Part shown: positions 13,701 through 63,901 of the stretch, piece by piece | Layout of the letters: each line of letters begins with the position of its first letter | Position numbering within the stretch: the stretch's first letter is position 1 | Assembly (NCBI RefSeq): GCF_026151205.1 | Contig: NC_087084.1 | Coordinates: forward strand, 5,449,538 to 5,513,537 | DNA length: 64,000 bases | Direction of reading: 5' to 3' | DNA from: Bolinopsis microptera | Taxonomy: Eukaryota > Ctenophora > Tentaculata > Lobata > Bolinopsidae | Notes under the pieces: generated by a model | Told to the model about the DNA's origin: nothing | What the model saw: only the letters and a program-made list of their open reading frames with translations | Databases searched by the model: none | Position numbers and translations under genes: made by a program

Positions 13701-16700
13701 AGGTAAATCTCTTGAATGGTCTGAGGTCGCCAATGACAATAAACTATCACGTAGTACAATACATGTATAACAATTAACACAGGTTATCTATATTATATCG
13801 TATCACATAACTCAAGTTTACACTGAGTAGCTAATGGTAGCTGGTGTTGAAGGTTAAGCTCGAGGTATGTAGGTATGTAATATCATGCCAAACATATTTG
13901 TACAATTTATTTAAACTTGCATTACTATATTATATAATGAGTCATTGTTGTTTAGTTGAATGGTGCAAAAGGTTCTTAGGACTACGACTGCTAATGTTGG
14001 TAGAAACGTTATCACTTATTTGTCCGTTTTACTAATTTCTTAAATTGCTATCAAATTATAACCTAAACCAGACTAGAACGATCAGGGTCCGTTTGTTAGC
14101 GTTTAATTCACTTATTGTATAGTCACTTAGTCAGATTGAGTTTAGGTTCCGTCGCGGTATGGCAAAAATGTTCCGAACATTGTTTCCTTTAGTTACCGTT
14201 TACTTATCGTTTAGTAGTTCCGTTTAGTGTCAATTGAAATGTTCCCATGCCCATCGCTAGCCCATTCTGTACGAAGCACGTGCTTACTTTACTTTACAGT
14301 TAAGTTTTACCGGCATATAAGGTAAGCATATTTTTCTAACCTTTCTTATATATTTCCTTACTAAATTATGTATAAACGTTTAAAACTAAGTTGTGAACGT
14401 TTAAAGTTTTAAAGTTTTGTTTAACTAAGTTTAAAACTAAGATATTCACATGATGCTGCCCATCAAATTAAGATAAAAAACCAACCTAGCTTGATCACAT
14501 GATCAAATACAGATTGAGATAAGAAACCAACCTAGTGAAGAGTTCACCACCAGGAATACTCTCCATAATAACATAAACATTCTCCCTGTCCTCGTATATA
14601 TCGGTTACTGGACACTGCGGGTGCCGAGTGTTAGTTATATGGTGGTTTAAAATATTTCCTTGTTTAAGAAATAAGTGTTAAAATAAGAATTAGAATTAGA
14701 ATTAGGACCAAATTTAAAATCAAATTTAGAATAAAATTTAGCATCGAATTTAGAAAGTTAGAATCGAATTAGACATTTGAAATGGAAATCATTTAGAAAT
14801 AGTTGGTCGCAGATAAAACTACCATTATTACCAACTTCCAACCATTATTTGGTTGCTTTACATCTTGTATTACAACTTGTAGTTGTATTATATGTGTATG
14901 ACAACTTGACATTTGTATTTAATTCAAGTTCCCTTGCTGTATAATTCTGTATTATTTGATGAAAGTCTCAAATCAAATCATGGCCCTCTTATTCACGTGA
15001 CTTACAATATTAGGATGTCTCACTCTGGATATCGTTCTTGCCATCTCCTCTGCGCTGGACAAGTCGTTTCCTTGTAGATAACTCTGAAATATTTTATTGA
15101 AGTTTTAACAATATGCTTACATTTTACCTATCATCCGGATGGTTTACTGAAACATTTAATGAATTGCCGTTTAAGTAATTTTACCTGCTTGCACGATTAG
15201 GGATGTTTATCATATATATTTTACATACAATTTATTGGCGTTATATAAGTATATAGTAGCACTTTACCCCTCACTATTAGTCGCTTGGCTGTGGCGGAGT
15301 CTAACAAGTGACTAGGTGAGCGGGCGGGCCGCAGCACTCTTGTTGTCGGAACCTATCTACAGTAACAACTATCTGTTTGGTCTACTGAGAAACCTATTTT
15401 GGTAGATCCATTGACACTCAAAAACTATGATGACATAGTATCTTGCTGTCCTGCATTGTCAAATTTTAAGTTATGTAGTAGCATATTATAATTATATCAT
15501 TCATACTACATTATTACATATTTATTATTCGTTTTTGCTAATGTTGACGGGAACAAAGCTAGCTGGCTTGATCTTTGAGCGACAAAATTATCCCGATAAT
15601 GCTAAAATATTCTTTATACATTTAATATAATATGTTTGTAGTTACAATTCCACCGTGACGGACACCACGATTATGCCATTTTTTAAAGTTCAAACGAATG
15701 TTGTGCTCAGGATGTTGCTTCTTTATCAGCTTAAACTATTTATTAGTCCACATTTAACCTTTCTATAGGTTGTGTGAAAATTTCAGACCCCTACCATTAT
15801 TACTTTCTGAGATAGCACCCCTGTGACGGACGCGACTTAAATATGACACTTTTTTTGGGTGTCTACTCAGAAGGTACCCAAATCTATCTCAAAACGTTAT
15901 CTATTATCTCTAATTTGGACATGCAGTGATAGAAAAAGGTTTAGGGATTTCTGAGATACCATTTTTTTGGAGATTGCTCAGTTTTTGTTCGCGTGGCGCC
16001 ATTTTCAAATTGTGACGGACGTGACTGTGACGGACACACGTTTTTTTCAATTTCTCCAAATCTTCTATTTGACACTTTTATCTTGTTCAGTGACCTTCAT
16101 TCTATATTTATGCCAATTTTTAGGCCGCTAGTACTTCCACGAGGTCTGCAATAGCCAAAATCGTCCATTTTGGGCATACGCGAGGGTATCAATCTAGGGG
16201 CAGCAATTATTTCTCTACTTGAACAAATTTATAACTCTGGTAAAACATTCATCTCTGTTCAACACATCAGACTGTTGAGACCATCTCCCAAAAGTTTCAT
16301 TACTTTAGTGTTTAAAATGTGGAAGATATTGAATTTTTACTTCAAAAATATGCGAAAATAGGGTAAAGTCCATTTTTTGTGCCTTTTACCCCTGAAAAAG
16401 GTTAAGGCAAATAAAATGGCAAAACTCAGTAAATTTAATTATTGAATTGCATATGATGTTATTTGATAGTCTAGTCAACATAGTCAAACCTTATTTGACT
16501 TCAATTTGTCTTGGTTTTAGTCAAAATAATGGAAATATGGATAAAAATGGCTAAAAGTGAGCCGTACGCCCATATCTCCATATATGGGCATATACAAAAT
16601 TATACATAACTCAGTCATTTTCTGTCCAATTTTCGATTTGACAACATCGTTTTGTTAAGAACGGTCTCAGCTTTAACAAAAATGCATTTAAAGTCTGTTA

Positions 16701-19700
16701 AAAGATTTTTTGGAGCATTTTCAAAAAAATGTGACGGACGCGACAAGTTGGGACCCCCCTTCCAAACATTTTTTCTTAAAAGATACAAGCCTGATAATTT
16801 CTACGGTACTCCCTTACCTTCAGAAGAGATAGGTTATAGTGGTTTTTTGAATATAAATAGCACTATGTGGCTCTGAAAAAACTTTTTTGCTTAATTTTGT
16901 GACGGACGCGACACCATCTTTGTGGAAATTTTTTAGAAAAATTATTTGAGTAACGGTTTTGAAACTTTGCATGGCTCTCATTCTTATGCCTATGCTTAAG
17001 TGTATGAATTTTCATAGAGAAATATTCCTGCATACCCAAACTATGGCCCTTTGAAAATTTGAATGATTTTTTTCATTTCCGAGTAGTGTTCCTTTGAATG
17101 AGAAAAATCAAAAGTTAATGCAATATGAAACAAAAAACTTTTGTTGACCTGTAAGGTTAAGAGTCTAATGAAAATATTTTAACCAAAATTAGGTGCCTAT
17201 CTTAACATTTTTCATTTTCACCAAGTGGAACCTTACCGTGGACCTTCCGTATATTAAAATAATTTAATTTTAATGGTGGTAAACCACCATTAAAATTAAA
17301 TTATTTTACGGAATATAATAAACCGTACTAATCGTTCGAACATCCTGAGGCTTTTCTCAGGATCGCAGGTCACGTGGTCGCCATGGTCACGTGATTGCCA
17401 TGGTCACGTGGTCACCATGTGACAGCTGTTTTCAAGGTCACATGACACACGACGCAATGCTCCCCTTACACAGAACAAATGCTCAATGCGAGTGTTCCTA
17501 TGGTATCGATCGTACGTTTTAATAATAATATTGGGAGGGAACTCCACTGCTATAATCACGTTTACTTTTCCTCACTACAACATTTTATCACTGACGGTCC
17601 AGATTTGCAGCAAAACTTTAAAGTCGGCTCGAAATACTTATTGCTCTGTAACCAAGCAAATGATAAACGTGACTAATTAGAACATTTAGGGCAGTGGGAA
17701 CGTGACATGAAACCGCTATAGTCTAGAGGCAGGAAGTGTTTAATTTTCCTGTCGACAAGTCTTGAAAATTACATTGAATATGTATTACTAATTATTACTT
17801 CAACATATTTCCTCGACATTTCGTGCTACACTCCGTTTGGGTACATTTGACTTATACTAGGTGGGGAATACTGTTTAAATGTTCGATTTTTCAACCCTGT
17901 CTTATTTTCAGCTTGATACTGATAGAATTTGTGAATTTGGATGGATCATCTAGAGTTCGTGATTTGATTGTCTATTTAAAGTCGTCGTATTAACCTTATA
18001 AACTGAACAATTACTACTGTGTCACTTGATTTTGAAGGACGATGCTATCTTGAGAATGTATCAGGGGCGTGCCCCTGGAATGTATCATCATATAATTCGT
18101 CATCTAGGAACGTAATCAGGGACTAGAAACCGAGATTTATACACTATACATGTACATTATACATTATACATTATACATTATACAGGCGACACAGTTTCAG
18201 TATCACTCGTGTAATTAACCATTACAGTGCTTGAAACAGCGACGGAAACAGTTGTTTTCCAGTTACTTGCCTTGTTTCATTTTGTCTACGTGTGATAAGT
18301 CTGTCTTGTCTAAGTCTACAAAGCTGCCATATAGCCTGACTGACAATTTTCTCGACTGACTGACAATGTTTCTTCTTTTCCCCATTTAGAATACAAAGAT
18401 TAGTACATTTTAGCTTATGATTAATATTATATTTTTACCTATAGTTTACCTAGATTGTATATCCATTATATATCACAATGTTACCAACTCACAATGTTAC
18501 CAACTCACAATGCTACCAACTCACAATGTTACCAACTCACAATGTTACCAACTCACAATGCTACCAACTCACAATGTTACCAACTCACAATGTTACCAAC
18601 TCACAATGCTACCAACTCACGTGGTGACGCTAACATTCACCCAGAAACCACTGATACCATCGCTGCCATACTATCTTACTATATAGTACTACCCTACTAT
18701 CATAGAATAACAAAGAACATCCTATATGGGCCTCCCCCAGCCTCGGATCTTAGGATTGGATTTGCAAAAATTCATAAGACAAACTGCTTAAGAAAAGCTA
18801 AGACTGCAAAAAAAGCTGAGACAAAATTTAAGCGAACCTGAGATGTCAAAATAACCTAAGACAGCGAAAAAACCTGAGACAAAATTTAAGAAATCCCGAG
18901 ACAGCGAAAAAACCTGAGACAAAATTTAAGAAATCCCAAGACAGCGAAAAAACCTGAGACAAAATTTAAGAAATCCTGAGACGCGCGAAAAAACCTAAGA
19001 CAAAATTTAAGAAATCCCGAGACAGCGAAAAATCCTGAGACAAAATATAAGAAAACCTGAGACAGCGACAAATCCTGAGACAAAATTTAAGAAAACCTGA
19101 GACAGCGAAAAATATTTAGATAGAATTTATACAATAACCACAAGAATATACAATATGGATATTACATCTTTTTATTTCTTTCAAAGAATATAATAAATAC
19201 AATATTACTAGGTATAGTAGGAATGTCAATAAGTCAATAGAATTTGTCTAAAATCTCTATGTGCCTGCTAATGAAGTGAGTATCCTAGATCATATCTTTA
19301 CAGGTAGGACTGTATAATGGGGGCCCCGATGTTATAGCGGACATCATCCCCCTCCCTCCTTATGCCCCTTCTGAAAAGCTACGAAGTTAACTTTCTAATA
19401 AGTTACAACGACAACTAGTCTCTCGTTTTACTCCCTACTGTACTGGATTACTCGTCAATCCAGGTATATGAGTTTGAATCCCAGTGTCACCTAGTCTAGG
19501 GAGTAACTAAGGATCCATTGGATCTATGCGATCTCCTCGGTCGACTCAGCCGAATGATAGGAAACTTAATTGAGGGTTAAATGAGGATGGGTACCTGTTA
19601 AAAGTTCAAGAAACTTCCTAGGATACCCCTTCAGTGCATACTGTAAACATAGTGCTATTAACTATTAACTATGAGTATATGTGAGAATGATCCTGAAACT

Positions 19701-22700
19701 CTTAAGATATATTATAGTCTAGTTGGGTTTTCCATATAAGCACAGTAGTGTACACAATCTTTGTATTTGGGCATATTTCAAAACTGGTTCCACTTGGAGG
19801 AAATTTCAGAAATGCTTTTATCAATCCAATTTTGGAAATTTTAGAATGTTTGAACTTTATACTTTGAAAATCTGCAATATTGGAGACATCAATCTACTCT
19901 ATCATGCAAAAATAGCTCATTCTATCATCGACACTAAAACAATCCTCAAAAGTGTGCTCTACTTCATAACGTCTCTAGATTAGGCCTTTACTTGAACTAA
20001 ACCCAAATTTTGTGTGTTAGTATATGAGATTTCATTTTTACAGACTGATATAAAGCCCAATCAAGGAGAAAGAGCTAACATGGGGAAAATGTGGTTTAAA
20101 AAATTTTGTCACTCCGTAACAAAAAAGTGTCAAAAAGTTATCTATTCTCTTAACTACACGCCTATTGCATTCCATATTTTCTGAAGTATCTCAGTGACCT
20201 TACACTAAGATTTTCCAACATTTTCGATTGATAACATTATTATTTAAGAGGAGATATGATGAGCCAAACTTTGGTCACTCCGTAACGCTGTGTTACGGAG
20301 TGACAAATTCAAGGGACATTGTCACTCCGTAACGAATTTTTTTATTGACATTTCAAGATTTACAGTTGTTATTGACCTTGTAATTATGTAATCACATAAT
20401 TACGCTCTACCTGGAGCATGGTGCCTGGGGCTATTGGGATATGAGCCGAAACACAAGGAAAGATCACGTATTTTTGGATAAGTTGCAGCATGACCTGATC
20501 ACATCTTTATGCTATTTCAAGTGTACTATTAACTATAGTACACCATCTTAGTATATATCAAACACACACACATTGAAGTCTATTAACTATAGACTGGGCT
20601 ATTAACTATAGCCTGTACTATTAACTATAGTACACCATCTTAGTTGCTAAATCATGATTTAGCAATTCAGAAATTAGCAACTGATTAATCAGTTGCTAAT
20701 TTCTGATTTACCTTACGACATGGCTTTGATGGGGAAAGGGAGGGCTCGTATATGTAGAGAGAAAAAGAAGATGGATCCTGTTAAGTGGGCAGACTACAAG
20801 AGGAAAGATGCTTTGAGAAAGTCAAACTATAGGAGGACAGCTGAAAAAAATGATCCAGTCCTGTTTGAAAGCATCAAACTTAATGATCAGGTATGGAAGA
20901 GGAGTGCAGAAGGAAAGCAAGACCAGTTCCAGGAACCTTGAAAGTGCACCACATTGTCCGTTCTTTCACAGATAACAGCTGCATCCTCACCTTTAGGGAC
21001 ACGTCAGTTGATGGATCTTTGATAAAGAAGATAGAGTATGCCGATGAATCATCTGCTCAGACGACTTCAACAACAGTTATTGGAGAGGAGGAAACACCAT
21101 CATCTTCTAACAGCTGTGAAACTTACAACATTGATCAATTCGTGATTGTTAACTGGGAGGGTGAACTTTACCCAGGAAAAGTTATTGGCAAGCCAGACAG
21201 CAGTAACCTTACCGTTAAGTGCCTTGTACCAGCTGGAAAACCTGGATCAATCTGGAAATGGCCTGACAAAGAGGACGTCCATGATTACGAACTTAGTGAC
21301 GTGAAAGGAGCTATTGGTATGCCGAAGCTTTTGCCGGGAACAGGGAGAAGAATAGAGTTTGAAGTACCTGAACTTGCTTATAAGTGGGGTGTAAAGGTTT
21401 GAATTTTCGTTAATCTGTGTACATTGTACAGTTTATAACTTTAAACAAATAAGCCCAGATTTTTAAACATTTCATTATGAAATGTCACTCTGTAACAGAT
21501 TCTTAACCGAGTAATATTTGTAGAAAGTTAAACCAATGAGACTGATTTTTATGCAATTGTTTATATTTTTCAAACAGTGATTTAAATGTGCTGTATTTTA
21601 AGGGAAATTTACAGAGTTGTAAGCTCCAGGGTTGATTTTTTATCACATGATCGTATTTTTATTCATAATTGTGATCAAGACTAATGAATTGTACCAGATT
21701 TGATTTATTTCACATCAATAAATTTGTGTGTCTACCTTGTTTAAGTGTTATCTATCTAATTTTGAAAAGAATTCTACTATTTAGAGCCAGGAACAGGATG
21801 AAAAATGATGAAAAATTCGAGTGGAATGAGAGACTGTTTGATGCGTCACTCCGTAACAGTCACTCCGTAACAATCCCCAAAATTTTTGAAGCCTCAAATT
21901 TTTTATTCCTTAGGCAATACACACTTTTTCTTGATTAATTATTGAAGGAAAATGTCTGAAAAGTGCCTGGAAGCCGTCAAAATGCAACTTTCAAGAATAT
22001 CTGAGATAAAAATAAGGTCAGAATAAGGGTGTACCAAAATCTGAAAATTTATCTAGTCACTCCGTAACGAAATTTCGACTTTTAATTACTCAAAAACGGA
22101 TTGATTTCTCACTATTATCTTTGGCAGATATGTAAATCGTAGGTTTGAAAAGCCTTAGAAACATAATTTAACCAATAATGAACCTGTTTTCTTGGACATT
22201 TTTCGGAAAAAATGGGTAAAATTGTCACACCGTAACATTCTATAGTTTTGAAATAAGCCCATTTATCTTATGTGTTTTATCGTGTACACAGTACAGACAG
22301 TTCCAATTAGATGCAGAAGAGTTGTTTATGTTCCCACTTCCCGATTACAATTATGACAAACTCAAAATAGAGGATTGTATGCGATAAATATGTACATCGA
22401 AAATTTTAATGGAGTATCACCCGAGTAGCTCAGCAGCTACCTTACAAGACATTTTTATAACGTACGAAATGCGACGGTTTTCCCGAAATTTCGCCATATT
22501 TTCGGACCGCCAAAATTTCGGTCGTCGTAATAGAATCCGTCGCATTATTTTTAGCTTATTCCAATAATTGTGGCTTCATCGATTCATTTTGTTCTTGAAA
22601 AGTTAGTGATATGATGGTGGGACAAATAAACACAATATTCCATGATGAATTTAATGTCAAGTAATACGTTTTAAATTTACAATAAATTACATTTATGTGC

Positions 22701-25490
22701 TAACATAAACGTCTTATAAGAGACTAAGTCAAGATAAACAATTTAATACCAAACTCAATAAGTGAAACTGAAAGAGTCGAGCCGGACCCCTTAGAGGAAG
22801 ATGAAGAAATCGATTTATAAGTTTCATTTTGTTTCAACATGATTTTACCGATTTTTAGAAAAGTTTGAATTTCCTTTAGCTTTGTGTCAGAAAACAAAAT
22901 GATGAAAAATACCCTTATTTTCTGTGACGTCCGAAATGTGACGGTTTTTGTTCAATTTCGCCATATTTTCGGACCGCCAAAATTTCGGTCGTCGCAAATT
23001 GGTCCGCCACAAAAATGTCTTGTAAGGTAGGCGATTGACTAGCTCTGCACGAGGTCGGGAGTTCAAACCTGCGTGAACGCCAAGTAAACTTTAGCCCAGC
23101 ACACAAATTTTTTCATGATAAATAGGAAATAAACCTTTGTACCTAGCGAGCCAGTGGCAGTAGCTTGAGCAAATAATTCAGATAGTAGCAAAAACTTAAA
23201 TAGTCCCAGTGCTCAGGATTGAGGACATAATGAAGAATAATCTGAAAATACACGACTATTTGAAAATTGAATCCGGAAAAGCACTTGCCAGTTACAAAAA
23301 AGCTAGGCTTTGACTCTACTTTGTAGATAACCGACTCCAGTACTCAAAACTGAAATGGGCCTGGCTAGGTAACTCGAGCAGCGGTAATTTGCCGATGAAT
23401 TTTAGCAAGCCTAGCTAGTCAATAAGTAGATAGTGTATTAAAGATACAAAGATAGTACTAGTAAAAATTCTTGGTTTCTTATTCGTACATTAAGAAAGGA
23501 ATCTTTCAATCAGACATTAGGGAGGGGAAGGTGATGTCCGCTTTAACATCAGGGTTCTATTATACAGGCCTACCTGTAAAGCTATGATCTGGGATATTCA
23601 CCTCATTAGCAGGTACAATCTAGGGCTTAGTACGAAAATTAACCCCCCGACACTTGACCCCCCGACAATTAACCCCCAAATTATTATACTGAGATCAATT
23701 GACTCAGTGTAATTGCATGGGGGTCAATTGTAAGCCGGGGGCTTACAATAGGGGGGGGGGGTTCATTTGTCGCCCACCCGCTTCAATCTCCCCGTCCCCA
23801 AAACTGCTTCCCTCTTTTCAGAGTTTCAAGACCATTCTCATAGTCATATACCTGGATTGACGAGTAAACTAGTACAGTAGGGAGTAAAACGAAAGATTAG
23901 TTGTCGTTGTAGCAGCTACAACGTAGCTTATTAGAAAGTTAACTTTGTAGCTTTTTAGAAAGTTCGGAGTAATCACTCAGGTATAGTATCTTACACATTT
24001 ACTGATATATTATAATAATTATAATTAGTTACGAAGCACACTGTACATCCAAAATAAATGAAGTAATAAGCGATAAATAGGCATTTATTGCTCAATTGAG
24101 GTGAAGTTAAGTGTGTTAATTTCTCCACGGGCAGGTTCATCAGAGCTTTCCAAAGGTAGGTTTTAACCAGCCATCTCATTTCTGGAAGTTTTTGTAGCTT
24201 TTAATCAGATTAAGGAGGGGTAAGGGGGGGGGGGGTCCTACCTGTAAAGATATGATCTAGGATACTCACTTCATTAGCAGGCACATAGAGATTTCAGACA
24301 AATTCTATTGACTTATTGACATTCCTACTATACCTAGTAATATTGTATTTATTATATTCTTTGAAAGAAATAAAAAGATGTAATATCCATGTATATTCTT
24401 GTGGTTATTGTATAAATTCTATCTAAAGATTTTTCGCTGTCTCAGGTTTTCTTAAATTTTGTCTCAGGATTTGTCGCTGTCTCAGGTTTTCTTAAATTTT
24501 GTCTCAGGATTTTTTGCTGTCTCGGGATTTCTTAAATTTTGTCTCAGGTTTTTTCGCGCGTCTCAGGTTTCTTAAATTTTGTCTCAGGTTTTTTCGCTGT
24601 CTTGGGATTTCTTAAATTTTGTCTCAGGTTTTTTCGCTGTCTCGGGATTTCTTAAATTTTGTCTCAGGTTTTTTCGCTGTCTCGGGATTTCTTAAATTTT
24701 GTCTCAGGATTTTTCGCTGTCTCAGAATTGCTTAAATTTTGTCTTAGGATTATTCTGCTGTTTTAGGATTATTCTGCTGTCTTAACTTTTGCACCTGTGT
24801 CTCAGGAATTTTTGCAAATCTAATCCTAAGATACGAGGCTGGGGGAGGCTCTATATATCTGATCGCGAGAGTCAACATGTCCTTCACGTACTGTGCTTAG
24901 AACTTTAGTAAGTAAATGTGGTTATTGCTGATCTTTAGCAGGCAGAATCGTGACTTTCATTGCGAATTGAAAAAGTTTCCGTACTATGTTTTTAGGACTT
25001 GAAATCGATTTGTGAGCAAGGTACGAATACTTGGCATTCCTCCAATTAATCAAATACGGGCGGACTATTTATGGCTAGATATTTCTAGCAAATAAAAACA
25101 GACACATAATGACATGATTTATAACAATATTTTATATTGAAACTTGAATTATTTACATGCAATTCTGAAAGGTCCGGCAGTCCCCATCAAACTTTGAAAA
25201 AAACGTGCCGAAGAAAAAACTTACATTTTTAGCAATCTTCTTTACAACGTAGGAACTCTTGGTATGCTTGTTCTCCGCACCGTGCACCACTGAAAGTGGA
25301 CCACTGAAATGATTTGTCTGTCAACAATCTCTAGGTGATTTACCGTGCCTTAAAACAGTAAATACAACAAGGTTTTCAACAAGGTTGTTGTAGCTTTAAG
25401 GAATATTTCATACCTAGAGCAAGGTTCACCGACATTGTAGGTATCTTCAAGAGATGTCTTGAGAGAACTGGCGAAGAAATAGTCAACCAT
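7764..25490 (-). CDS. CaMK-family pseudokinase, CaMKV-like (11 exons)
   Basis: Exons from the 5' end: 25414-25490, 25225-25303, 15006-15083, 14532-14614, 12908-13019, 9518-9644, 9320-9395, 8918-9041, 8550-8630, 8088-8431, 7764-7818. Every junction is GT/AG and in phase, giving 411 codons. A CaMK-type kinase fold covers residues 18-277: degraded Gly loop (CSSGPLSVV), beta-3 Lys (VVKKI, residue 47), HPNI, GGELF, APEIL, SDVWSIGVL, LLSGLEPF and EALEHPW. The catalytic loop reads HANIKPENVL (139-148) instead of HRDLKPEN, and the metal-binding DFG reads DFY (162-164), so both key acidic or glycine positions are changed. The helix-C Glu may also be displaced. Vertebrate CaMKV, a known pseudokinase, has HRN and DFH. 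A signalling scaffold is the likely role. The start ATG lies 7 bases after a possible splice acceptor, so upstream exons are possible. Exon 8088-8431 could hide a small in-frame intron. Confidence 0.85.
11363..11880. repeat. Tandem duplication of about 250 bp
   Basis: Units at 11363-11612 and 11613-11880 share long blocks, including AAAGCAGTTACCCA, ATGCTTTGCTCATGAGCA and GTGCTACGCAAGGCGCGGTG, with scattered substitutions and small indels. It lies in an intron of the pseudokinase gene. Confidence 0.85.
12141..12220. mobile_element. 80-bp TTAA-flanked G-rich hairpin element
   Basis: The ends TTAAGGGGGACAGGGG and its inverse CGGCCCCCTTAA flank a short core containing TCTTAATCAAAATTCTCTCG. The same end and core are found in the large foldback at 37428-38161, so this looks like a minimal member of that family with a TTAA target duplication. 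Confidence 0.7.
15640..17250. mobile_element. Iterated-word element, GTGACGGACGCGAC type
   Basis: An AT-rich stretch without coding capacity, punctuated by the word GTGACGGAC(G/A)C at 15655, 15823, 16012, 16027, 16731 and 16899, all in the same orientation. Pairs near each end are exactly 168 bp apart. Limits are approximate, because no inverted ends or target duplications were recognised. It lies in the intron between 15083 and 25225. Confidence 0.5.
17256..17307. repeat. 52-bp near-perfect palindrome
   Basis: Two 25-bp arms (AAAATAATTTAATTTTAATG... and its inverse) surround a 2-bp centre. It lies at the right edge of the iterated-word element and may mark its boundary. Confidence 0.8.
17369..17419. 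promoter_or_regulatory. Three 17-bp tandem repeats, each with a CACGTG E-box
   Basis: The unit GGTCACGTGGTCGCCAT occurs three times in a row (starts 17369, 17386, 17403) with few changes, placing three canonical E-boxes 17 bp apart. Binding by bHLH factors is inference; it may simply be a short satellite. Confidence 0.5.
18475..18618. repeat. 16-bp satellite with 48-bp higher-order period
   Basis: Nine units of ACAATGTTACCAACTC. Every third unit has GCT in place of GTT, so the true period is 48 bp (three units), repeated three times. Because 48 is a multiple of three, spurious open frames run through it. Confidence 0.9.
18750..19112 (+). repeat. 40-bp tandem array, left arm of foldback
   Basis: About eight units around CCTGAGACAAAATTTAAGAA and CCCGAGACAGCGAAAAAA. 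The outer units are more degenerate than the central ones. An inverted array with matching units occurs at 24418-24800. Confidence 0.9.
20518..20706. repeat. Array of six hairpins, four sharing one loop
   Basis: Four hairpins share the loop TTAACTA but have different stems (GTACTA, GTCTA, GGCTA, GTACTA). They are followed by a perfect 22-bp palindrome (TTGCTAAATCATGATTTAGC plus AA) and a perfect 40-bp palindrome centred on GATTAATC. The array ends directly upstream of the element's ORF. Confidence 0.8.
20720..21402 (+). CDS. Orphan element protein: basic N-terminus plus WKWP domain
   Basis: Two overlapping frames. The first (ATG GGG near 20729 to 20941) encodes a Lys/Arg-rich segment with MDPVKWADYKRKDALRKSNY, resembling basic N-termini of uncharacterised proteins encoded by invertebrate elements. 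The second, one frame away (20893-21402), encodes about 169 residues ending in a compact domain with the pattern YNIDQFVIVNWEGELYPGKV, then SIWKWPDKEDVHDYEL. This resembles, from memory, an SH3/Tudor-like module common in uncharacterised invertebrate proteins. A frameshift, a short unseen intron or programmed slippage could join the frames. It lies between two clusters of a 13-bp word, so a role in binding or moving the element is a reasonable guess. No catalytic motif was seen. Confidence 0.45.
22417..23085 (+). mobile_element. tRNA-derived SINE head split by a TA-flanked element
   Basis: Left of the insertion stands an A-box-like CCGAGTAGCTCAGCAGC. Right of it are GGCGATTGACTAGCTC and a B-box-like GGGAGTTCAAACCTG. 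Removing the insert and one TA gives a tRNA-like order of D arm, anticodon arm and T arm. The acceptor stem does not pair well and no CCA-type end is seen, so this is a SINE head or tRNA pseudogene. The 3' tail of the SINE is not clear. Confidence 0.55.
22440..23027. mobile_element. 588-bp inverted-repeat element inside the SINE
   Basis: The ends CCTTACAAGACATTTTT and its perfect inverse are flanked by TA at 22438-22439 and 23028-23029, as expected of a Tc1/mariner-like target. Inside, an 85-bp segment (GACGGTTTTCC..., CGCCATATTTTCGGACCG) is present as direct repeats near 22460-22545 and 22927-23010. It is non-coding. Confidence 0.75.
23630..23775. repeat. C/G-rich minisatellite hairpin
   Basis: Repeats of ATTAACCCCC and TTGACCCCCCGAC on the left face GGGGGTCAATTG and a poly-G run on the right, with an AT-rich middle. 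It could fold into a hairpin. No coding content. Confidence 0.5.
24418..24800 (-). repeat. 40-bp tandem array, right arm of foldback
   Basis: Reverse-orientation partner of the array at 18750-19112, with eight or nine units around CTTAAATTTTGTCTCAGG and TTTTTCGCTGTCTC. Confidence 0.9.
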
Positions 25491-29342: not shown

Positions 29343-30196
29343 CCGTAGAATGGGGGAACTTCGCCATGTTTTACAGCTATTTCATGTTATTTAGAAAATA
29401 CGACACGAGTACTTGAAAAAGTTTATAGCTCATATGAACAGGATTAGTAAAGCAAATGTTTTCGTATGAACCACATCAGCCAGGCATAAATAGTCAGCTA
29501 GATTGGTGCCACTGAAATCAGGGCGAAGTTACCCTGCAATATGGGGTAACTTCGCCATTCTGAAACTATACCATATTCGGTGCTAAGCACCATACCACTC
29601 GAAACTCAATTATATTTCCTTGATATACCTGCCAATTTTACTTATCTATCTCTAGCCTGCGTGTTACAATGGGCAATTTGGTCGCCGGGGTAACATCGCC
29701 ATGCTGCGGGTAACATCGCCGGGATGAAGTAGAAATGTAGTCGAACTTCGCCAATACACGTGCGTGACTTTGCCAGCCGCGCGCGAATTTCGCGCCAAAC
29801 TTCGCCGAACAGATGGGATCAGAAGAGGGTAACTTCGCCACACACAAATTTGAAAACTTCATAATATCAGTTGTGTGCATCATGGCTAACTAAATTTGCC
29901 CTTAAATGAACAGGACATATGCTAATGATGTCACACAGAATTAATTAAGGATATAATTGTAAAATATGGGAAATATGCAAGCAGGAAATTTTAGCCACTT
30001 TATAGCAATATTTCATGTTGCCTGAGTTTAATTAACATAGTAAACGTTTATTTTTGAATAGGAATACCTTTATAACCATTTGTTCAACACAATACTATAC
30101 AAAAACTCGATCTCCTAACAATTCAAAACAGTAAAATGATTATTTGAAAAATAGTGGCGAAGTTCCCCGACACGGCGATTTTACCCCAATCTACGG
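29343..30196. mobile_element. 854-bp inverted-repeat element, AACTTCGCC type
   Basis: The ends CCGTAGAATGGGGGAAC and, inverted, CCGTAGATTGGGGTAAA agree at 19 of 23 positions and are bordered by TA on both sides. The paralogous locus at 37329-37345 reads straight through without it, which fixes the borders. The word (G)TAAC(T/A)TCGCC recurs in both orientations at 29357, 29522, 29548, 29691, 29711, 29743, 29798, 29830 and 30157. It has no credible coding region. Confidence 0.8.
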
Positions 30197-40439: not shown

Positions 40440-42260
40440 CAACAAGCTGTGAAGACGTCATCACCTGTTGACCATTATTAATGATCTGGCCTGTGGCCCG
40501 GCGCGCGCTACTTCGTAGAACTTGCCATCGAGAAAAAAGCGGCGCGCGCTACTTCGAAGAAATTTAGACGAGTAACATCCGTCAACATCACCTGTCGTAA
40601 TATTTTAAGCCAGTAACAAGTAAGGTCTGTTGGGTAAAATTAATATACTTTTCGTTTTATTAATACAATTATATTCCCATTACTGCTTAACGGGTGTCGG
40701 ATTGATAATCGTGAAATATTTGTTCCAAATATCAGGACCGTCGACGAGTCCAACTCGGCGCGCGTCCTGGTAGGTTATAAACCTACAATATACAAATTAC
40801 TGCGAGCTGTTGATTCGTGACGTCACATGCGTGATGCGCGTCTATGCCCTATGGTCTACAAAACATTCTTGCACAGTCAACAGTACATTGCATTTTCTAC
40901 TTGATTCACGATGTCAATCCTTCCTAGCTCGGTGAGGCCCAGCATGGCCATGCATCTCGCCGATTTACGGAAGGTTGTGGTTGCGAGAATATGCGCGGCG
41001 TGGCCTAGTTTTGCATCGCACTACAAATTTTTGACAAAAATCTATTCCCTCTGTTTGTCAAAATTTGGGGCGCGCTATATACAATACGTATTGTCATACG
41101 TTGTATGACCCGCCGCGCACGAGTGCGCGGCTCCTCCTAGCTGTATCGTCGAAACTCTATAGTGAAGCGACCGTGGGGTTCACCACGTAATACAACAATA
41201 CGTATAGTTTAATTTTTGCTTACAATTTCTTAAATTACAGATACAAATTAAGTTCTACGGCAATTGGATTCAATCACAAGTGTTTTTGACCATTGTTAAT
41301 GGTCTGGCCCGGCGCGCGCGCTACTTCGCAGCACTTGCCATCTTTTAGTTCCAAATTTATAATAGTTAAAGAATAAAGACACAAAATTTGTAAAAAAATG
41401 TGTACAATTTGTACAACATTTATACAAGGAGGGACCCTTGTTGTTTGTGTTCGAGCTGGAAAATTATTTAAAACAATTTGTCTTCTAACATCACCTTTGA
41501 TTCACGATGTCAATTCTTCGCAGCTCGGTGAGGCACAGTGGTGCATTTCGCCGATCTACCGAAGAATTGCGAGAAGAATTATTTGATGCGCGGCGCGACC
41601 CAGTAGTCATGGTAGTGCATCGCGCTACAAACATTACCTATTTGGTACTAAAAGATTCGTTTTCTCAAGCTGATTACGATTCTGTAAAAATTATTTCCAA
41701 AAAAAACTGACACTTTTTGAGTTATAGGCATTTTAAGCCTTAAATCTTCCATGTTTGGCCCTTTTTTACGATAAATTTTACTAAGTTGTTTGAGGCCACA
41801 TTTTATACCTTAAAACTCAAAACTGAGAGAAATCCTGTTCCAAAAAGTTTGCTGTTTGATATGATCATCAGCTACACTCACAAAAATTTTTGAAGCGATA
41901 TCTGATGACCTGGGCGAGTAAGTGGTTTATATAAAATGTACAACTTTGGTGGTAGGCAAAAATTCCAATTTTTTCTCACCTAATTGTTCGGTCTGTAATT
42001 AACTTGGTCATTGATTGTTCAATTATATAATCCTTTAAAGGGTTGTCTTGTACGGAGTGTTCGTAATGTTCAGTAAAAAAATCAGCCAAAAAACTTTTAA
42101 AATGGTTGACGGATGTTACTCGTCTAAATTTCTTCGAAGTAGCGCGCGCCGCTTTCTTCTCGAAATGGCCCGATGGCAAGTGCTCGAAATGGCCCGATGG
42201 CAAGTGCTACGAAGTAGCGCGCGCCGGGCCAGATCATTAAGAATGGTCAATTAAAATGGC
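40440..42260. repeat. Cluster of CpG-rich composite repeats (A and B modules)
   Basis: Module B (CCCGGCGCGCGCTACTTC, GCACTTGCCAT, then AGAAATTTAGACGAGTAAC) appears at 40440-40620 and 41290-41345, and inverted at 42105-42255. Module A (GATTCACGATGTCAATCCTT, CGCAGCTCGGTGAGG, GCATCGCGCTACAA) appears at 40902-41030 and 41499-41632. The inverted B modules flank the cluster, so the whole may be one element of about 1.8 kb or a nest. Other copies lie near 1405, 50760-51000, 51900-52270 and 55100-55470. Confidence 0.65.
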
Positions 42261-42840: not shown

Positions 42841-42843
42841 ATA

Positions 42844-49410: not shown

Positions 49411-49474
49411 TATATGAAGGCGAGGTGTCGGTCTTACCCTTTCAAAGCGGATTAAAAAATACCGACTCTCTCGA

Positions 49475-49815: not shown

Positions 49816-49817
49816 AG

Positions 49818-51153: not shown

Positions 51154-54100
51154 AACCCTAACTCTAAGCCACTCTGTGCCAAGGCACTATTATATATATA
51201 CTAGTTATAGTATACTAGCTGTAGAGAGGGTTAGTCCTACGAGCCAGGTAGTGTGTATCACCAGCTAGTTTTATTGTTTAGTTACAATACTTATGATTCT
51301 GAAATGCCACCTAAGCATGTAGCGTTATATCGTATCAATATTTGATATTGTAAACTTTCGGTTTTTCATATTGATCCAATTACCGCAAAATTTGGAATAG
51401 TTATGAAATAATAATAAGACCATATTACAGTTCATGTCAAACACAAGGAAATACTTCAGCGAGATATATGTAGAGAAGTGTGTTCTACACCTACCGGTGA
51501 TTTCACTCGTAGGTGGGAAACCACTACAAAATATATTTGTAAGCCGCCTTTATGAGCGGCTACCCCCAACGGCCAACATTTACGACTCTGTTCAGATGAT
51601 CATCGGGCATCCAGATTGCATATTCTAATCATGATATTCTGTATCGTATCTGGCGCACCCAAGGATCCAAAACAAGCTTGTTCTAAAAATGTAATATTTT
51701 CGACCAAAATTATACAAATACAATACAATGCATCGTCCTAGCTTATTGGTATTTTGTTATATTTTTGGTTCCTTGAATGAGATCATTCTGAAAATTGATG
51801 AAAACCTTCCAATATAATACATATCAACAATGCAATGCCAAGGTACAACCGTTGTCCATAGCATACGTTGTTAACTGGTAAAATATTTCATATTTGTTTC
51901 AAATTTGATTCACGATGTCAATCCTTCGCAGCTCGGTGAGGCACAGTGGTGCATTTCGCCGATCTACCGAAGGTTGCGAGAAGCATTATTTGATGCGCGC
52001 GCGACCCAGTAGTGCATCGCGCTACAAGTTTCAAATATAAAGAAAAATAAAAAACCGCTGTAAAATAAAAAACCGCCGGGGCCGTCCGCGACGATCGCGA
52101 GTCGAAATTGGCGCGCGTCTTAATAGGTTATTGACGGATGTTACTCGTCTAAATTTCTTCGAGCGAAGTAGCGCGCGCCGCTTTTTTCCCGAAATGGCCC
52201 GAGACAAGTGCTACGAGGTCAAAGGTAGCGCGCAGCAGGCTAGTCCGGCCATAAACAATTTACTGGGCCGCGCTCAGCCTGTCATTCCGCCAAATCTATA
52301 TGTTAATGAACATAATAGCCTGGGGTCCTCAGGTAATAAACAATGGACAAGGTGGGTCATAAATCTACACTACGTTGTATAGTCATAGACTTGATACATG
52401 TTTCGCCTTCGGTGGCGCGCGCTTCGCGCGCGAAAAGTGGCATGCAACGTATGTCAATCGTAGACCTAGTATAGGCCGGGCAGCGCACGAGTCATGTGGG
52501 GCTGTATATCGTAGCCATTTTTATAATGAAACGACAATGGGGATTGGGGGTCACGACGTGATACAAGTCAAGGGTCAGTCGAGTGATAAATCAGCATCCA
52601 GAGGTGATCGCGTCTTCCAGAGCCCTTGCGGTGGCGCGAAAGCACATGACACGTGACGCAATTCAGCAAATCAGAGAACAGGAATCTGCAAAGTTGTGCA
52701 CTTTTATTCGGCCCGAAATAAAACATTTTGGAATAAATCAAAATCTACAGTGTACATGGTCCCCAATTTTGCTCCTGGGGAGCAAGGGGCTGTTTTATTT
52801 TAAGAGACGAACATTGAACATTTTGCTAAAACCGGATACCGCGATAGCTCTTTTACTTTTGGAGATATCCCCTAGCCGGTACGGTTTTCTGGGGACGAGT
52901 ATCATCCGTCAAGATCGATTATACAGATAAATATAATTTACTGCAAAATACGATTTTCAATTTATTTATCTTAAGAATCAAAAGGGATAGACAAATAAAA
53001 CAAATTCCTTTAAAATTCTAAATTGAAGAGAATTGTATTATTCAAAGATATTTGCTGTTCGGAAACAAACCATTGGGACCAAACAACGAATAACATTATT
53101 TACAAAGAATTGTTAACGAATCAGCCTAATATCCACCCAAATTTTGCAAACTGAAATGTCCAACCTCAAACACAAGTTAACATTTTAGTGGACTGGATCG
53201 TGGATATCAGGCTGAACATAATTCCAATAAAAACTCGCTTATAAAAATATACAATGTTGAATGCAAGTTTGTCTAAAATAACAATAATTATCTACTTTCA
53301 CCAATATTTATACTCGAAAAACATTGAGCTGCTTCATCAGTCAATCAATCGACCTCTCGTACGATAAACTAACTTATTTGAAGATTAAGTTAAATCAACG
53401 ATAGCTTCAAACTAAAAAGGGTCGAAATATGCAGCATCAAGATTTTTCGATTCTGCTTAGAATTTGAAACTAAATATGATCATAAATTCATCATAATTAT
53501 ACTCATATATATATAACTCTAACATCTACTGTATAACCTCGATTATTTTAAAATTTGAACCGTACTTGAACTCGTAATTAAGCATCCCTAATAATGTTAA
53601 TCTTAGTGTGTTATCAAAAGAAATTATTACTGTATATAAAACCGTCACTAACTAATTAACTGATCAATCAATTAATCAATTAATTTAAGCTCACGGTTTA
53701 CCCGCATCTCATCAGGACCTCAAATTTTAATTGATAACTTTAATGTAACGAATCTCATCAATAATTACTATAATTACAATTATTTCCATAAATACTCTCT
53801 TTAAAACATGTCTAACAAACAATCTGTATTCATGAATAAAATTTTTAAATTTAAAGTGAACCACCTTTATCTATGTTGTAAAGCTGTAAAGAGGTGAGCT
53901 GCGGAAATAGCGCTTCAAATCGAATTTATAAATGACAACTTATTTGACAAAGAAATGTAAACAATGCCGTGTGACTAACCCCTGGGGTATCTGGGAAAAT
54001 TATTAATTAAAATTAATTTAAGCATGAATTTTTCACTTGAGGAATGAGATTTGATAGAGAATGTTGGCGAGTTGCCAATTTCTTCGGGAGGTGTCGGGAA

Positions 54101-54355: not shown

Positions 54356-57300
54356 AACCCTAACTCTAAGCCACTCTGTGCCAAGGCACTATTATATATA
54401 TACTAGTTATAGTATACTAGCTGTAGAGAGGGTTAGTCCTACGAGCCAGGTAGTGTGTATCACCAGCTAGTTTTATTGTTTAGTTACAATACTTATGATT
54501 CTGAAATGCCACCTAAGCATGTAGCGTTATATCGTATCAATATTTGATATTGTAAACTTTCGGTTTTTCATATTGATCCAATTACCGCAAAATTTGGAAT
54601 AGTTATGAAATAATAATAAGACCATATTACAGTTCATGTCAAACACAAGGAAATACTTCAGCGAGATATATGTAGAGAAGTGTGTTCTACACCTACCGGT
54701 GATTTCACTCGTAGGTGGGAAACCACTACAAAATATATTTGTAAGCCGCCTTTATGAGCGGCTACCCCCAACGGCCAACATTTACGACTCTGTTCAGATG
54801 ATCATCGGGCATCCAGATTGCATATTCTAATCATGATATTCTGTATCGTATCTGGCGCACCCAAGGATCCAAAACAAGCTTGTTCTAAAAATGTAATATT
54901 TTCGACCAAAATTATACAAATACAATACAATGCATCGTCCTAGCTTATTGGTATTTTGTTATATTTTTGGTTCCTTGAATGAGATCATTCTGAAAATTGA
55001 TGAAAACCTTCCAATATAATACATATCAACAATGCAATGCCAAGGTACAACCGTTGTCCATAGCATACGTTGTTAACTGGTAAAATATTTCATATTTGTT
55101 TCAAATTTGATTCACGATGTCAATCCTTCGCAGCTCGGTGAGGCACAGTGGTGCATTTCGCCGATCTACCGAAGGTTGCGAGAAGCGTTATTTGATGCGC
55201 GCGCGACCCAGTAGTGCATCGCGCTACAAGTTTCAAATATAAAGAAAAATAAAAAACCGCTGTAAAATAAAAAACCGCCGGGGCCGTCCGCGACGATCGC
55301 GAGTCGAAATTGGCGCGCGTCTTAATAGGTTATTGACGGATGTTACTCGTCTAAATTTCTTCGAGCGAAGTAGCGCGCGCCGCTTTTTTCCCGAAATGGC
55401 CCGAGACAAGTGCTACGAGGTCAAAGGTAGCGCGCAGCAGGCTAGTCCGGCCATAAACAATTTACTGGGCCGCGCTCAGCCTGTCATTCCGCCAAATCTA
55501 TATGTTAATGAACATAATAGCCTGGGGTCCTCAGGTAATAAACAATGGACAAGGTGGGTCATAAATCTACACTACGTTGTATAGTCGTAGACTTGATACA
55601 TGTTTCGCCTTCGGCGGCGCGCGCTTCGCGCGCGAAAAGTGGCATGCAATGCAACGTATGTCAATCGTAGACCTAGTATAGGCCGGGCAGCGCACGAGTC
55701 ATGTGGGGCTGTATATCGTAGCCATTTTTATAATGAAACGACAATGGGGATTGGGGGTCACGACGTGATACAAGTCAAGGGTCAGTCGAGTGATAAATCA
55801 GCATCCAGAGGTGATCGCGTCTTCCAGAGCCCTTGCGGTGGCGCGAAAGCACATGACACGTGACGCAATTCAGCAAATCAGAGAACAGGAATCTGCAAAG
55901 TTGTGCACTTTTATTCGGCCCGAAATAAAACATTTTGGAATAAATCAAAATCTACAGTGTACATGGTCCCCAATTTTGCTCCTGGGGAGCAAGGGGCTGT
56001 TTTATTTTAAGAGACGAACATTGAACATTTTGCTAAAACCGGATACCGCGATAGCTCTTTTACTTTTGGAGATATCCCCTAGCCGGTACGGTTTTCTGGG
56101 GACGAGTATCATCCGTCAAGATCGATTATACAGATAAATATAATTTACTGCAAAATACGATTTTCAATTTATTTATCTTAAGAATCAAAAGGGATAGACA
56201 AATAAAACAAATTCCTTTAAAATTCTAAATTGAAGAGAATTGTATTATTCAAAGATATTTGCTGTTCGGAAACAAACCATTGGGACCAAACAACGAATAA
56301 CATTATTTACAAAGAATTGTTAACGAATCAGCCTAATATCCACCCAAATTTTGCAAACTGAAATGTCCAACCTCAAACACAAGTTAACATTTTAGTGGAC
56401 TGGATCGTGGATATCAGGCTGAACATAATTCCAATAAAAACTCGCTTATAAAAATATACAATGTTGAATGCAAGTTTGTCTAAAATAACAATAATTATCT
56501 ACTTTCACCAATATTTATACTCGAAAAACATTGAGCTGCTTCATCAGTCAATCAATCGACCTCTCGTACGATAAACTAACTTATTTGAAGATTAAGTTAA
56601 ATCAACGATAGCTTCAAACTAAAAAGGGTCGAAATATGCAGCATCAAGATTTTTCGATTCTGCTTAGAATTTGAAACTAAATATGATCATAAATTCATCA
56701 TAATTATACTCATATATATATAACTCTAACATCTACTGTATAACCTCGATTATTTTAAAATTTGAACCGTACTTGAACTCGTAATTAAGCATCCCTAATA
56801 ATGTTAATCTTAGTGTGTTATCAAAAGAAATTATTACTGTATATAAAACCGTCACTAACTAATTAACTGATCAATCAATTAATCAATTAATTTAAGCTCA
56901 CGGTTTACCCGCATCTCATCAGGACCTCAAATTTTAATTGATAACTTTAATGTAACGAATCTCATCAATAATTACTATAATTACAATTATTTCCATAAAT
57001 ACTCTCTTTAAAACATGTCTAACAAACAATCTGTATTCATGAATAAAATTTTTAAATTTAAAGTGAACCACCTTTATCTATGTTGTAAAGCTGTAAAGAG
57101 GTGAGCTGCGGAAATAGCGCTTCAAATCGAATTTATAAATGACAACTTATTTGACAAAGAAATGTAAACAATGCCGTGTGACTAACCCCTGGGGTATCTG
57201 GGAAAATTATTAATTAAAATTAATTTAAGCATGAATTTTTCACTTGAGGAATGAGATTTGATAGAGAATGTTGGCGAGTTGCCAATTTCTTCGGGAGGTG

Positions 57301-57805: not shown

Positions 57806-57839
57806 GTTTCCAATCATCGAAGTAATCATGTAAGTACCT

Positions 57840-59440: not shown

Positions 59441-59450
59441 TAGCGGATTG

Positions 59451-59531
59451 GTTGCTAGGGAAGCGCGTCATGGTTGCTATGGTGGCGCTACGAGACGAGG
59501 CGTGACGTAACGCAAGGTGTTGGTGACGTCA
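59451..59531. promoter_or_regulatory. Two X-box-like sites and a CRE
   Basis: GTTGCTAGGGAAGC (59451-59464) and GTTGCTATGGTGGC (59473-59486) resemble RFX X-boxes, and TGACGTCA stands at 59524-59531. Sites were judged by eye against consensus words. Confidence 0.35.
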
Positions 59532-61308
59532 TATTGTAGCTGTTACCTGGTCAGATGAGATTCCTTTTAACGGGGCGGTTATTAGCTGTTCATGCGTACA
59601 TCATGCAATATTATAGTTTACAGACCGTTTAGTGTTGAAAGGGCACAGGGCCAAAAGCAACATTTTTTAGGTTAAAATATTTTCTACATCCATGAACGAT
59701 TCCAAATGCAATGCCGCTCCTTTTCATTCAGCAGTAAAAGCACGTTTCATTCTCAGACAAAACTTGAATTGTGAGCGGTTCGACCATTATATATTTTCCA
59801 ACTGTAAACTTTGATCCCAACTTATCTTTCAGAGTCACCTCCTATACGATGATTAATTGGGATCTTAATAGATATTTTCTTTCAACAACACTAGTATAAA
59901 CGCTGAGTAATTTAATAAAAAATGTACTATAATAATGTCAGCCCATGAACATGTATTTTGTGATTCTACCCATGCAATAAACTTGGCTACAAGCGGAAGG
60001 TGGCGACAAACCGTTTTTATGTTACAGCACGAAAAATTCCTTGGGACTCTGCCAATTACCATATAAGGTAAAACCAGGATTTTTATCTCGCAGATAAAGA
60101 ATCTGATTGTTCCATATAAGATAGTTAGCAGTGAACAAAGTCACGTGACGTCACAGCAACATAAAACAACTAAGCACAACCCCTCACTTGTAGTCTAGAT
60201 CATCCCTAGCTCTTTCTCATGCGCTTCAACGAATTTCTCAATCGCAGATGCCCGAATAATATCAGTTTGGAGAAAAACGACAAATCATAAATCGAATATC
60301 AAGCCTGATAAAATCGGACGAGTAAGGTAGCCCCAAATACCAGCCAAACGAAAAATAATTCTCATTTCATTCTCAAGTAGCAATATGGATGGGAACCCTG
60401 CACCTTCACTTACCAGCCACGGGAAATAACTCACAATTTTAGCATCCTTTTTTTGCGAGCAAAAATTATTTAAGGAGGAAGATCATGAAGTTTCGTTTGA
60501 TGTAAGCAAAAAATCGGGCAATTTCCTCCATAGGTCGTACTAATATTACACCTTGGGGTCGTTGCCAGATTTTCTACTTGACGGATTTTTCTTGAAAAAC
60601 AAAAGTGAGTCTTTTGTCGACACTCGCCAAACTTCAAATATCTGATTTGGCTTGGTTTTCACATTGGTATCATGCAGAAGTCTGCATATGCATGTGCCAA
60701 AATTCACACAATTTTACAAATAGTTTCCCGGGGCTGAACAGTGAAATGCGACTGATGTATGCTGCTTCAAGCTTAAATATACAGAAAATATGGATGAGAT
60801 AATATGCTGGTACATTCAAATATACATGTTTTTGTAGAAATCTCTCATCGCTCGAATAGATTTACGGCACACTTAGAGAAAATGTGGGGTTTGTGAAGGA
60901 GTAAATTTAATTCAAACAGCGACAAGCTCGGCAGATCTCCATGAGGATAAAGTGACGTCATCAGATTGACGATATAATGATATAAAGTACACTAATCAGG
61001 CATGTTCCAGTAATTGTTTACTGATTATGACGAGGGATATATGGTTACCATAGCAGCAGGGACACAATGCACGAGATGTGGTTTTTTTCAGAGGGAGGGG
61101 GAGGTGTCGGAACTAGGACATCAATCAGCCGATAATCAACATGCATGTTATTGGGGTCTCAATAATACCATAGCCTAACACATGAACAAGCCAAAGGTTG
61201 CTGGGTGTTTTCGGGCCGCTGCTGCCGGGGAGACGACAACGACGACCACGCACACGCATACTATTATGTGGCAAACCAAGTACTCTCGTGCCAGCTCACC
61301 TAAACCGG

Positions 61309-61356
61309 TGACGTCATCAAATTTCAGTGACGTCACCTCAACAGAAAGTGACGTCA
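61309..61356. promoter_or_regulatory. Three CRE sites in 48 bp
   Basis: Perfect TGACGTCA at 61309, 61328 and 61349, spaced 19 and 21 bp, or about two helical turns. Four further perfect copies lie at 59524, 60146, 60953 and 61945. This palindrome is the full CREB/ATF site. Confidence 0.55.
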
Positions 61357-61792
61357 TCGAGTGAGTGTTTATACTCGGGTGTGGGCCGATATCTACAATT
61401 TGAGTTGAGTTACACTCTCTCACGGGTTTTCGGATATATGTAACGAATGGGGCGCCCGACTTTTTACCTCCTGAAATTAATCTCACGGTATTCTCCCCGC
61501 ATCAGAAGTTAAAACAAAGAACCCAACCCGAAGGACACAAACGCACCAAACCCTTAACCGGAACCTCATCCCCAAAATATAAACCCAATTTTAACCACTT
61601 AAGGGTAAAACACGGTGAGAATTTCGAGGGGTAAAAAGTGCGTCCCCCAACCAATGTAACTATGTAATGAAGCCTCAAGAAGTTACCAATACATTCATTT
61701 CAAAATTACGATTTCTGAGATATAAATAAAATTAACAGTTTCAACATGGAGGAAAAAAACAAGTATTTGGTTATATTGCTCGGGTGGCGGAG

Positions 61793-61828
61793 GTTGCCAT
61801 GGTAACGCAAGACAGTAACCATGGTAAC
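61793..61828. promoter_or_regulatory. Two perfect RFX X-boxes
   Basis: GTTGCCATGGTAAC (61793-61806) and GTAACCATGGTAAC (61815-61828) both fit the X-box consensus of RFX factors. Near matches follow at 62425 (GTTGCTATGGCAAC) and 62448 (GTTGTCACGGTAAC), with another at 61044. Confidence 0.55.
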
Positions 61829-61855
61829 CACATGCAGACAGTGCTGCTCACCTGA

Positions 61856-62396
61856 TTAGTAGGGGTAATATCTGTAACTCGCTGCTACTCCAAGCGCTCT
61901 GCTAACCTGAAATTAGAGGACACGTGATGATCAGGGTGATTTGATGACGTCATCGGGTGATTATTGACGATACAAACAGCAGTACATCAATAGCGTGCTT
62001 TATATTATATCACAGTGCTCCAAACAGCACAGCACTAACACGAATCAGAAAGTTGGGAAATGAGAATACCCCACAACTTGGGCGGTCAGTCAGTCAGCTA
62101 GTGATGGGCTAGTGTCTGTCACGTGTCAGTCAACTGTAAGTCATAGCAGTGGGGTTGTTTTAGTAACTTACTGGGTTGACGATGCTCTGGTGCTGTGCAA
62201 GTTCTAAGTGTTGCCGCATCACGGCGGCTGCCTGCTGCTGGGGTATCAGGGTGGTCCAGATGTAGTCTTGATCGTTCTGCATACCGGGCATTCCTGCCGC
62301 AGCCTGCTGTTCTTGTCCAGCCTGAGCCGCGGCCTGCCATGGGTCACCCATTAGTCCCGGCTGTGCGCGTTGGTCTTGTGCTGGTTGTAATGCCGT
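61856..62396 (-). CDS. Gln/Ala-rich protein, last two exons (partial)
   Basis: Exon 62172-62396 (75 codons, phase 0 at both ends) and terminal exon 61856-61906 (16 codons and stop) fit together at AG and GT borders (CATCTCCAG acceptor, CCCA/GTAAGT donor, ATTTCAG acceptor). The product reads, in parts, TALQPAQDQRAQPG, GDPWQAAAQAGQEQQAAAG, QDYIWTTLIPQQQAAAVMRQ and HLELAQHQSIVNP, ending ASYRYYPY. It is rich in Gln and Ala, as in transcription-factor and co-activator tails, but no family was recognised. Earlier exons are not seen and are probably beyond the window's right edge. RFX and CRE-type sites surround these exons. Confidence 0.5.
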
Positions 62397-62749: not shown

Positions 62750-63901
62750 ACTGCCGTTTTCTCAGAAAAGGCAGTATGTCCAAATTTTCAAAATATGACA
62801 ATATTGGTATCAAAATTTTCAGTAGAAAATTCTCTACAACATGAGCTACATATTAATGTATAGAAACATTGTTGCATGCAAATCCTAAGGAAGTAAGTCC
62901 CAGTTGAGAAACATTATGTTCGGTTTTGGCCAATTATTTTCTGAGAGAAGGACGTAAGTCCGGACTTACTGCCTTTTCTGAGAAAATCTTGAAAATTTTC
63001 TGAGATAAGGAAGTAATTCCGTGGACTTACTGCCTTTTCTGAGATAAATTATCTGTGATAGGAAGAAGTAGCTGGACTTACTTCCTATAAAAGCATGTTA
63101 AAAACGGAATTTTAGAAAGCGATTTCCCAAAAAGAACATAACTTTACTGCCGATTGGTATTTTCGATTGAAATTTTCAGAATCGATGTATAATTACATTT
63201 CAACCTTACGTAAGTGATCAAAATTTTCATTTAGGCCTCAAAAAAAATTAGTGGCCGATTTTCAAAAACGCCGGATGTATTTTAGTCGCAAAACATAAAC
63301 ATTGGAGCAGTTATTGAGCTGTTATAATCGCAGAGAATGTTTAGTTTAGGTATATCTTTTAGATCAAGTTCATTTTCATCAAAATATCGATAAGATATCA
63401 TTTAATGCACTGAAATCGTTCAAAATTGGCGAGTTTGCCTAAATAAGGGCATACTATTATTCAAAAACATTTATTATATGATATGGAGCAATTTAGATTT
63501 ACCTAATTGTTTATATTTTACAATATAATCCAAAATACATAGATCCCAACCTCAAAAATTTAGTAAAAAGCTTGGACTTACTTCCTTCTCAGAAAAATAT
63601 TGAACAGAGATTTTTCTCAGAAAAGGAAGTAAGTCCACGTTTTTTCAGAAAAGGCAATAAGTCCATCCAGTATGAAAAATAATTTCGATTATTTGGCATA
63701 AAAATGGTTATATCTAAGCTTATGGACGGCTCAAAGCTTTAATTTTTTTGACAAATTAAAATTTGACTAATTATTGATAACTCAACGTGTTTACTTTCGA
63801 TCTTACGCAAAAAGTAAGCGGAGAAAAAACCATAAACGCAAAAGTCGAAATATCTCAAAATGGCAAATATGGACTTACTGCCTTTTCTGAGAAAACGGCA
63901 G
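62750..63901. mobile_element. 1.15-kb iterated-word element with 31-bp inverted ends
   Basis: The left end CTGCCGTTTTCTCAGAAAAG, continuing GGCAGTATGTCC (62751-62781), is repeated inverted at 63871-63901 with one difference. Each end is itself a hairpin. The word GAAAAGG(C/A)AGTAAGTCC recurs inside in both orientations, near 62950, 62962, 63005, 63032, 63073, 63571, 63615 and 63645. The interior is AT-rich and non-coding, and partly resembles the element at 47.2-48.0 kb. Confidence 0.75.

Follow-up and report, generated by a model that had tools for sequence, protein, structure and literature searches.

Five AT-rich regions, A to E, lie within a stretch of 64,000 nucleotides of the ctenophore Bolinopsis microptera (contig NC_087084.1; hereafter the window). 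According to the original prediction, made from the letters of the window, each is built on its own short word, present at both ends and repeated inside, and all are members of a single superfamily with a rapidly diverging binding word. Are these regions mobile, are their words private to them, and do they share one origin? We consider it likely that they are young, mostly non-autonomous cut-and-paste DNA transposons of several families and at least two transposase lineages, in which the words would be sites of each family's own transposase and their repetition would aid transposition.

The regions are interspersed repeats with sharp borders

Searching the genome (264,652,675 bases, 232 contigs) with each window region gave at first look 115 candidate matches for A, 40 for B, 67 for C, 1927 for D and 584 for E; at most 40 candidates per element were scored, and these totals are not numbers of verified copies. 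All five regions proved to be interspersed repeats with copies elsewhere, as predicted, and their sharp borders were corrected from these copies (Table 1). Target duplications of 4 bp were found in 6 of 7 A copies, 15 of 18 two-ended B copies (20 fetched, window copy counted) and 5 of 7 E copies. When left and right ends were taken from different copies and then paired, the corresponding values were 0 of 42, 5 of 306 and 0 of 42. TA flanks both sides in six of nine C copies, where the mixed-end control is weak (42 of 72), and the three full copies of D, whose window region is half of a 1.36-kb palindrome, have TTAA at both ends (for L077 the left end was read from the fetched copy).

Copies are highly identical, which suggests recent activity: scored full-length A copies are 97–99% identical to the window copy (93% in a second group), the best B copies 97–99%, most C copies 98–99%, D copies about 95% and most E copies 96–98%. 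Tips GGGCAATTCCAC, with 4-bp target duplications, are present on other A copies. A palindrome at 17250–17310 adjoins the truncated right end of the window copy of A.

Private words are iterated in four of the five regions

Words were counted with up to two mismatches on both strands, in each element and in 100 dinucleotide-shuffled versions of it. We found 5 matches of the A word GTGACGGACGCGAC in A (shuffle mean 0), 9 of the B word GTCACTCCGTAAC in B (0.04), 8 of the C word GGTAACTTCGCC in C (0.01) and 11 of the E word GGCAGTAAGTCC in E (0.03). That is, A, B, C and E carry iterated private words of 12–14 bases. The D word GCCCATATTTGG had three matches at two places in D (shuffle mean 0.19, largest 2) and nine more elsewhere in the window, and D therefore lacks the feature claimed for it. 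A scan of the window for iterated 10-mers (at least four G/C, tandem repeats left out) placed A, B, C and E among the strongest clusters and revealed a sixth element, F.

The predicted arrangement, words at both ends and inside, stands in full for two elements: the outermost words lie 11 bp from each tip in C and about 19 bp from each tip in E. It fails on the right side of A, whose last word stops 330 bp short of the tip (on the left the distance is about 10 bp), and on the left side of B, where 339 bp separate the tip from the first word (on the right the distance is 24 bp).

Genome-wide, exact copies numbered 134 for the A word, 164 for the B word and 85 for the C word (14-mer), compared with 0, 4 and 1 for the reversed words. 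We listed the first 100 places each for A and B. Among these, all 100 B words lay inside B copies (intervals joined from search pieces), and 70 A words lay inside scored A copies; 18 of the other 30 were within 2.5 kb of another A word and 12 were isolated. Seventy of the 85 C words were inside scored C copies, and seven of the other 15 fell in three fetched loci, each a further C copy, one rearranged. As far as examined, the A, B and C words are confined to element copies.

Element C resembles pogo families

C resembles pogo elements. It has no transposase inside, but in tips and word it is similar to the L059 element, where arrays of a word cognate to that of C flank a transposase frame of the pogo type. 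The L059-family transposase combines DDE_1 (PF03184, E-value 2.4e-19) and HTH_psq (PF05225, E-value 2.6e-11), both above cut-off, with DD35D spacing, read from sequence, and L059-type proteins have a fold of the mariner type. The pogo-2 transposase is 32% identical to L059 over residues 2–459 (E-values 3.9e-60 and 1.0e-59). Its family has its own word, spaced 17–21 bp and found 23 times genome-wide, all within four loci, and inverted tips flanked by TA on both sides (one copy, L093). We group C with these two families, whose transposase frames lie elsewhere in the genome, as the first lineage.

The three pogo words begin alike, with GGGGTAA or GGGTAA, and then differ; private words therefore diverge inside a single lineage, and different lineages show the same plan. 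Words do differ between families, as originally stated, and divergence within a lineage is borne out; "rapidly" is not, as copies within a family mostly keep their word.

The pogo group of IS630-Tc1-mariner is like C, L059 and pogo-2 in HTH_psq plus DDE_1 and DD35D (L059) and in TA on both sides (C and pogo-2). Within pogo terminal repeats a 12-bp transposase site has reportedly been published. Unlike known pogo elements, those described here have 8–12 words per element, many deep inside, and a common C-terminal domain. An excerpt of a paper on pogo groups (PMC7325037) gives a DD spacing pattern of 33–40, and the terms 'subterminal' and 'C-terminal' are absent from that excerpt.

A second transposase lineage shares a C-terminal domain with pogo

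A second lineage, characterised by an RNase-H-fold transposase and 4-bp duplications, comprises B and, judged by its tips, probably A. B holds remnants of a transposase with a predicted RNase-H fold and without a Pfam family: in the B-type model (mean pLDDT 69.1) conserved acids lie on an RNase-H fold of DDE/D character, one D in HVDYSENY, one in SDG and a candidate third in VDGIGG. Pfam gave no match above cut-off for the B-type fragments and eight relatives. Sub-threshold Pfam matches were a PHD-finger at the C-terminus of the relatives P0159 and P0163, and DUF7869 in P0176.

Two B copies of 8 kb, L039 and L040, were rejected as autonomous elements, their long frames looking by eye like a non-LTR retrotransposon reverse transcriptase. 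A further long frame adjoining a B copy (L057:1-891, minus strand) is integrase-like by eye.

The tips of both A and B have GGGCA, after which the positions disagree, and both elements duplicate 4 bp of target. By eye their words, GTGACGGACGCGAC and GTTACGGAGTGAC, seem cognate. A right and B left have in common a subterminal stretch, CCAAGTGGAACC (weak, BLAST E-value 0.11). A 4-bp target duplication is also a trait of Sola. Sola1-3 are subgroups of one Repbase superfamily, and an excerpt of the same source gives the superfamily rule as equal duplication length plus a terminal match over 11 positions (PMC4455052).

The least expected result was out of reach for a reader of the window by itself: B-type and pogo transposases have a homologous C-terminal domain (hhalign E-value 2e-27), and homology between their catalytic cores was undetectable by hhalign (probability 0.5%). 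A candidate second, divergent form of the domain was seen in 5 of 120 pogo proteins. Its matches to a set of 59 B-type proteins are weak (E-values 1e-5 to 5e-3, compared with 0.39 for the best reversed control), and the pogo-2 end itself matches at an E-value of just 0.004. The predicted structure hints that the domain may be a chromatin-reader fold (Royal-family-like: Tudor/Agenet/PWWP). Agenet was absent from the 50 rows of a VIA-align search with the B-type model. Among PDB sequences the best match of the domain, amidophosphoribosyltransferase (E-value 0.0084), was rejected as not credible.

One could imagine that the two lineages, with unrelated cores, acquired or exchanged one reader domain and converged on the plan of many private words, as a two-key system in which words would gather the transposase and predicted readers would hold it to marked chromatin; we offer this as a speculation with a low chance of being right. 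Literature titles and abstract openings, a coverage that mostly leaves out subscription journals, mentioned neither iterated private words in pogo elements nor a reader domain on such transposases.

What the words may do

In the mechanism we favour, each family has a private word of 12–16 bp, located within or close to at least one terminal repeat and recurring inside, to which the N-terminal DNA-binding domain of its transposase would bind. Repetition would raise transposase occupancy and promote end pairing, and internal deletions sparing the words would yield short high-copy elements. Repeated subterminal transposase sites are known from Ac/Ds, En/Spm, P and Tol2. These belong to other superfamilies.

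Alternatively, the words might bind host factors of transcription, silencing or replication and regulate the element by repetition. The many words deep inside, together with the distances that separate B's left words and A's last word from the tips, fit this explanation. However, common host factors would hardly account for words of no fewer than four dissimilar types (A/B, pogo, E and F), and the pogo words track the transposase family and sit inside the inverted repeat, so that we regard regulation by host factors as unlikely.

About equally unlikely, in our view, is that slippage, conversion or nested ends produced the repetition neutrally, as a by-product. In favour are close direct pairs and short arrays (B 21845/21859; the pogo-2 spacing), and six of seven E copies in which divergence is no lower at the words than elsewhere. 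With the window copy as reference, word positions had diverged less than the remaining sequence in most copies of A (5 of 7), B (11 of 15) and C (9 of 10) and in one of seven copies of E; in C, the pair of copies with the greatest divergence differed at 3 of 96 word versus 53 of 757 other positions and at 2 of 96 versus 59 of 757. As the copies are interrelated, this conservation neither proves nor refutes constraint. A neutral origin does not sit well with one plan realised by several unlike word types in both orientations, nor with the words' retention across B copies that differ in internal deletions.

Features shared between the elements recall the proposed single superfamily. Besides the likeness of A and B, a target of 4 bp is used by A, B, E and also D, where it is always TTAA; D and E have a diverged interior in common (124 and 110 bp, about 72% identity, E-values 7e-13 and 3e-11), and 29 bp are common to A and D (E-value 1.7e-5). 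D and E are unlike in ends and target sites, and from the sequences their interiors may have received new ends. TTAA targets are also used by piggyBac, Kolobok and Sola3, which D resembles in its insertion site; the tips of D are a run of G. We reject the single superfamily, the least likely of these explanations, on the three target classes (4 bp, TA, TTAA) and the core comparison, and it is further opposed by the pogo likeness of C, the dissimilar tips and target choice of E and D, the unlike tips of A/B and E, which both make 4-bp duplications, and the missing word iteration in D.

Features of the window

The borders of F were drawn by eye from the window copy. Its word also occurs exactly at 52164 and 55366. 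Identical open frames of 122 aa at 52562–52930 and 55769–56137, 3.2 kb apart, indicate a recent duplication. Tandem arrays at 18855–19112 and 24413–24770 apparently consist of the same 40-bp unit in opposite orientation. Palindromes like GATGACGTCA, which we take to resemble CRE/ATF sites, cluster at 59522–61954 (nine matches at up to one mismatch, six sites); the cluster looks regulatory, not mobile, and is perhaps a promoter. An Rfam scan of the window returned no match reaching the gathering score.

Table 1. Coordinates of elements, words and transposase remnants in the window
Feature	Position	Strand	Remarks
Element A, non-autonomous	15645-17242	.	window copy without both outer tips
A word 1 (GTGACGGACACCAC)	15655-15668	+	word scan
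A word 2 (exact)	15823-15836	+	word scan
A word 3 (GTGACGGACGTGAC)	16012-16025	+	word scan
A word 4 (exact)	16731-16744	+	word scan
A word 5 (exact)	16899-16912	+	word scan
B left target-site copy ATTT	19765-19768	.	fetched copies
Element B, derived by internal deletion from an element with transposase	19769-22260	+	tips GGGCATATTTCAAAACT / AGTTTTGAAATAAGCCC
B left words	20108-20333		20108+, 20274+, 20292-, 20321+; word scan
Transposase N-terminus remnant	20720-20938	+	73 codons, basic, then stop; placed by likeness to P0132 and P0138 N-termini
Transposase C-terminus remnant	20887-21399	+	171 aa, other frame; bears shared domain
B right words	21484-22236	+	21484, 21845, 21859, 22056, 22224; word scan
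B right target-site copy ATTT	22261-22264	.	fetched copies
Element C, pogo-like, non-autonomous	29343-30196	.	TA both sides; tips CCGTAGAATGGGG / CCCCAATCTACGG
C words	29354-29839		29354+, 29522-, 29545+, 29689+, 29709+, 29828+; word scan
C words	30156-30185	-	30156, 30174; word scan
Element F (sixth, outside the original prediction)	40468-42250		inverted ends TTGACCATTNTTAATGATCTGGCC
F word GCGCGCTACTTCG, 5 exact	40503+, 40544+, 41316+, 42135-, 42210-		
Element D, one arm of ~1.36-kb palindromic family inserting at TTAA	47230-47935	.	word iteration not confirmed
Element E	62751-63901	.	tip CTGCCGTTTTCTCAGAAAAGGCAGTA both ends; flanks here CATA / CATG
E left words	62770-63085		62770+, 62889+, 62950+, 62962-, 63009+, 63023-, 63074-; word scan
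E right words	63574-63882		63574-, 63625+, 63653+, 63871-; word scan

Implications

These are families of a known general kind that make marked use of private iterated words, and one of them resembles the pogo group. They point to a C-terminal domain, assigned to no Pfam family, that is common to transposases with unrelated catalytic cores. In addition, one genome offers a natural series, three GGGTAA pogo words and two of the GGGCA type, along which word and transposase seem to have changed in step; exchanging words and DNA-binding domains could therefore show how a transposon comes to a new address.
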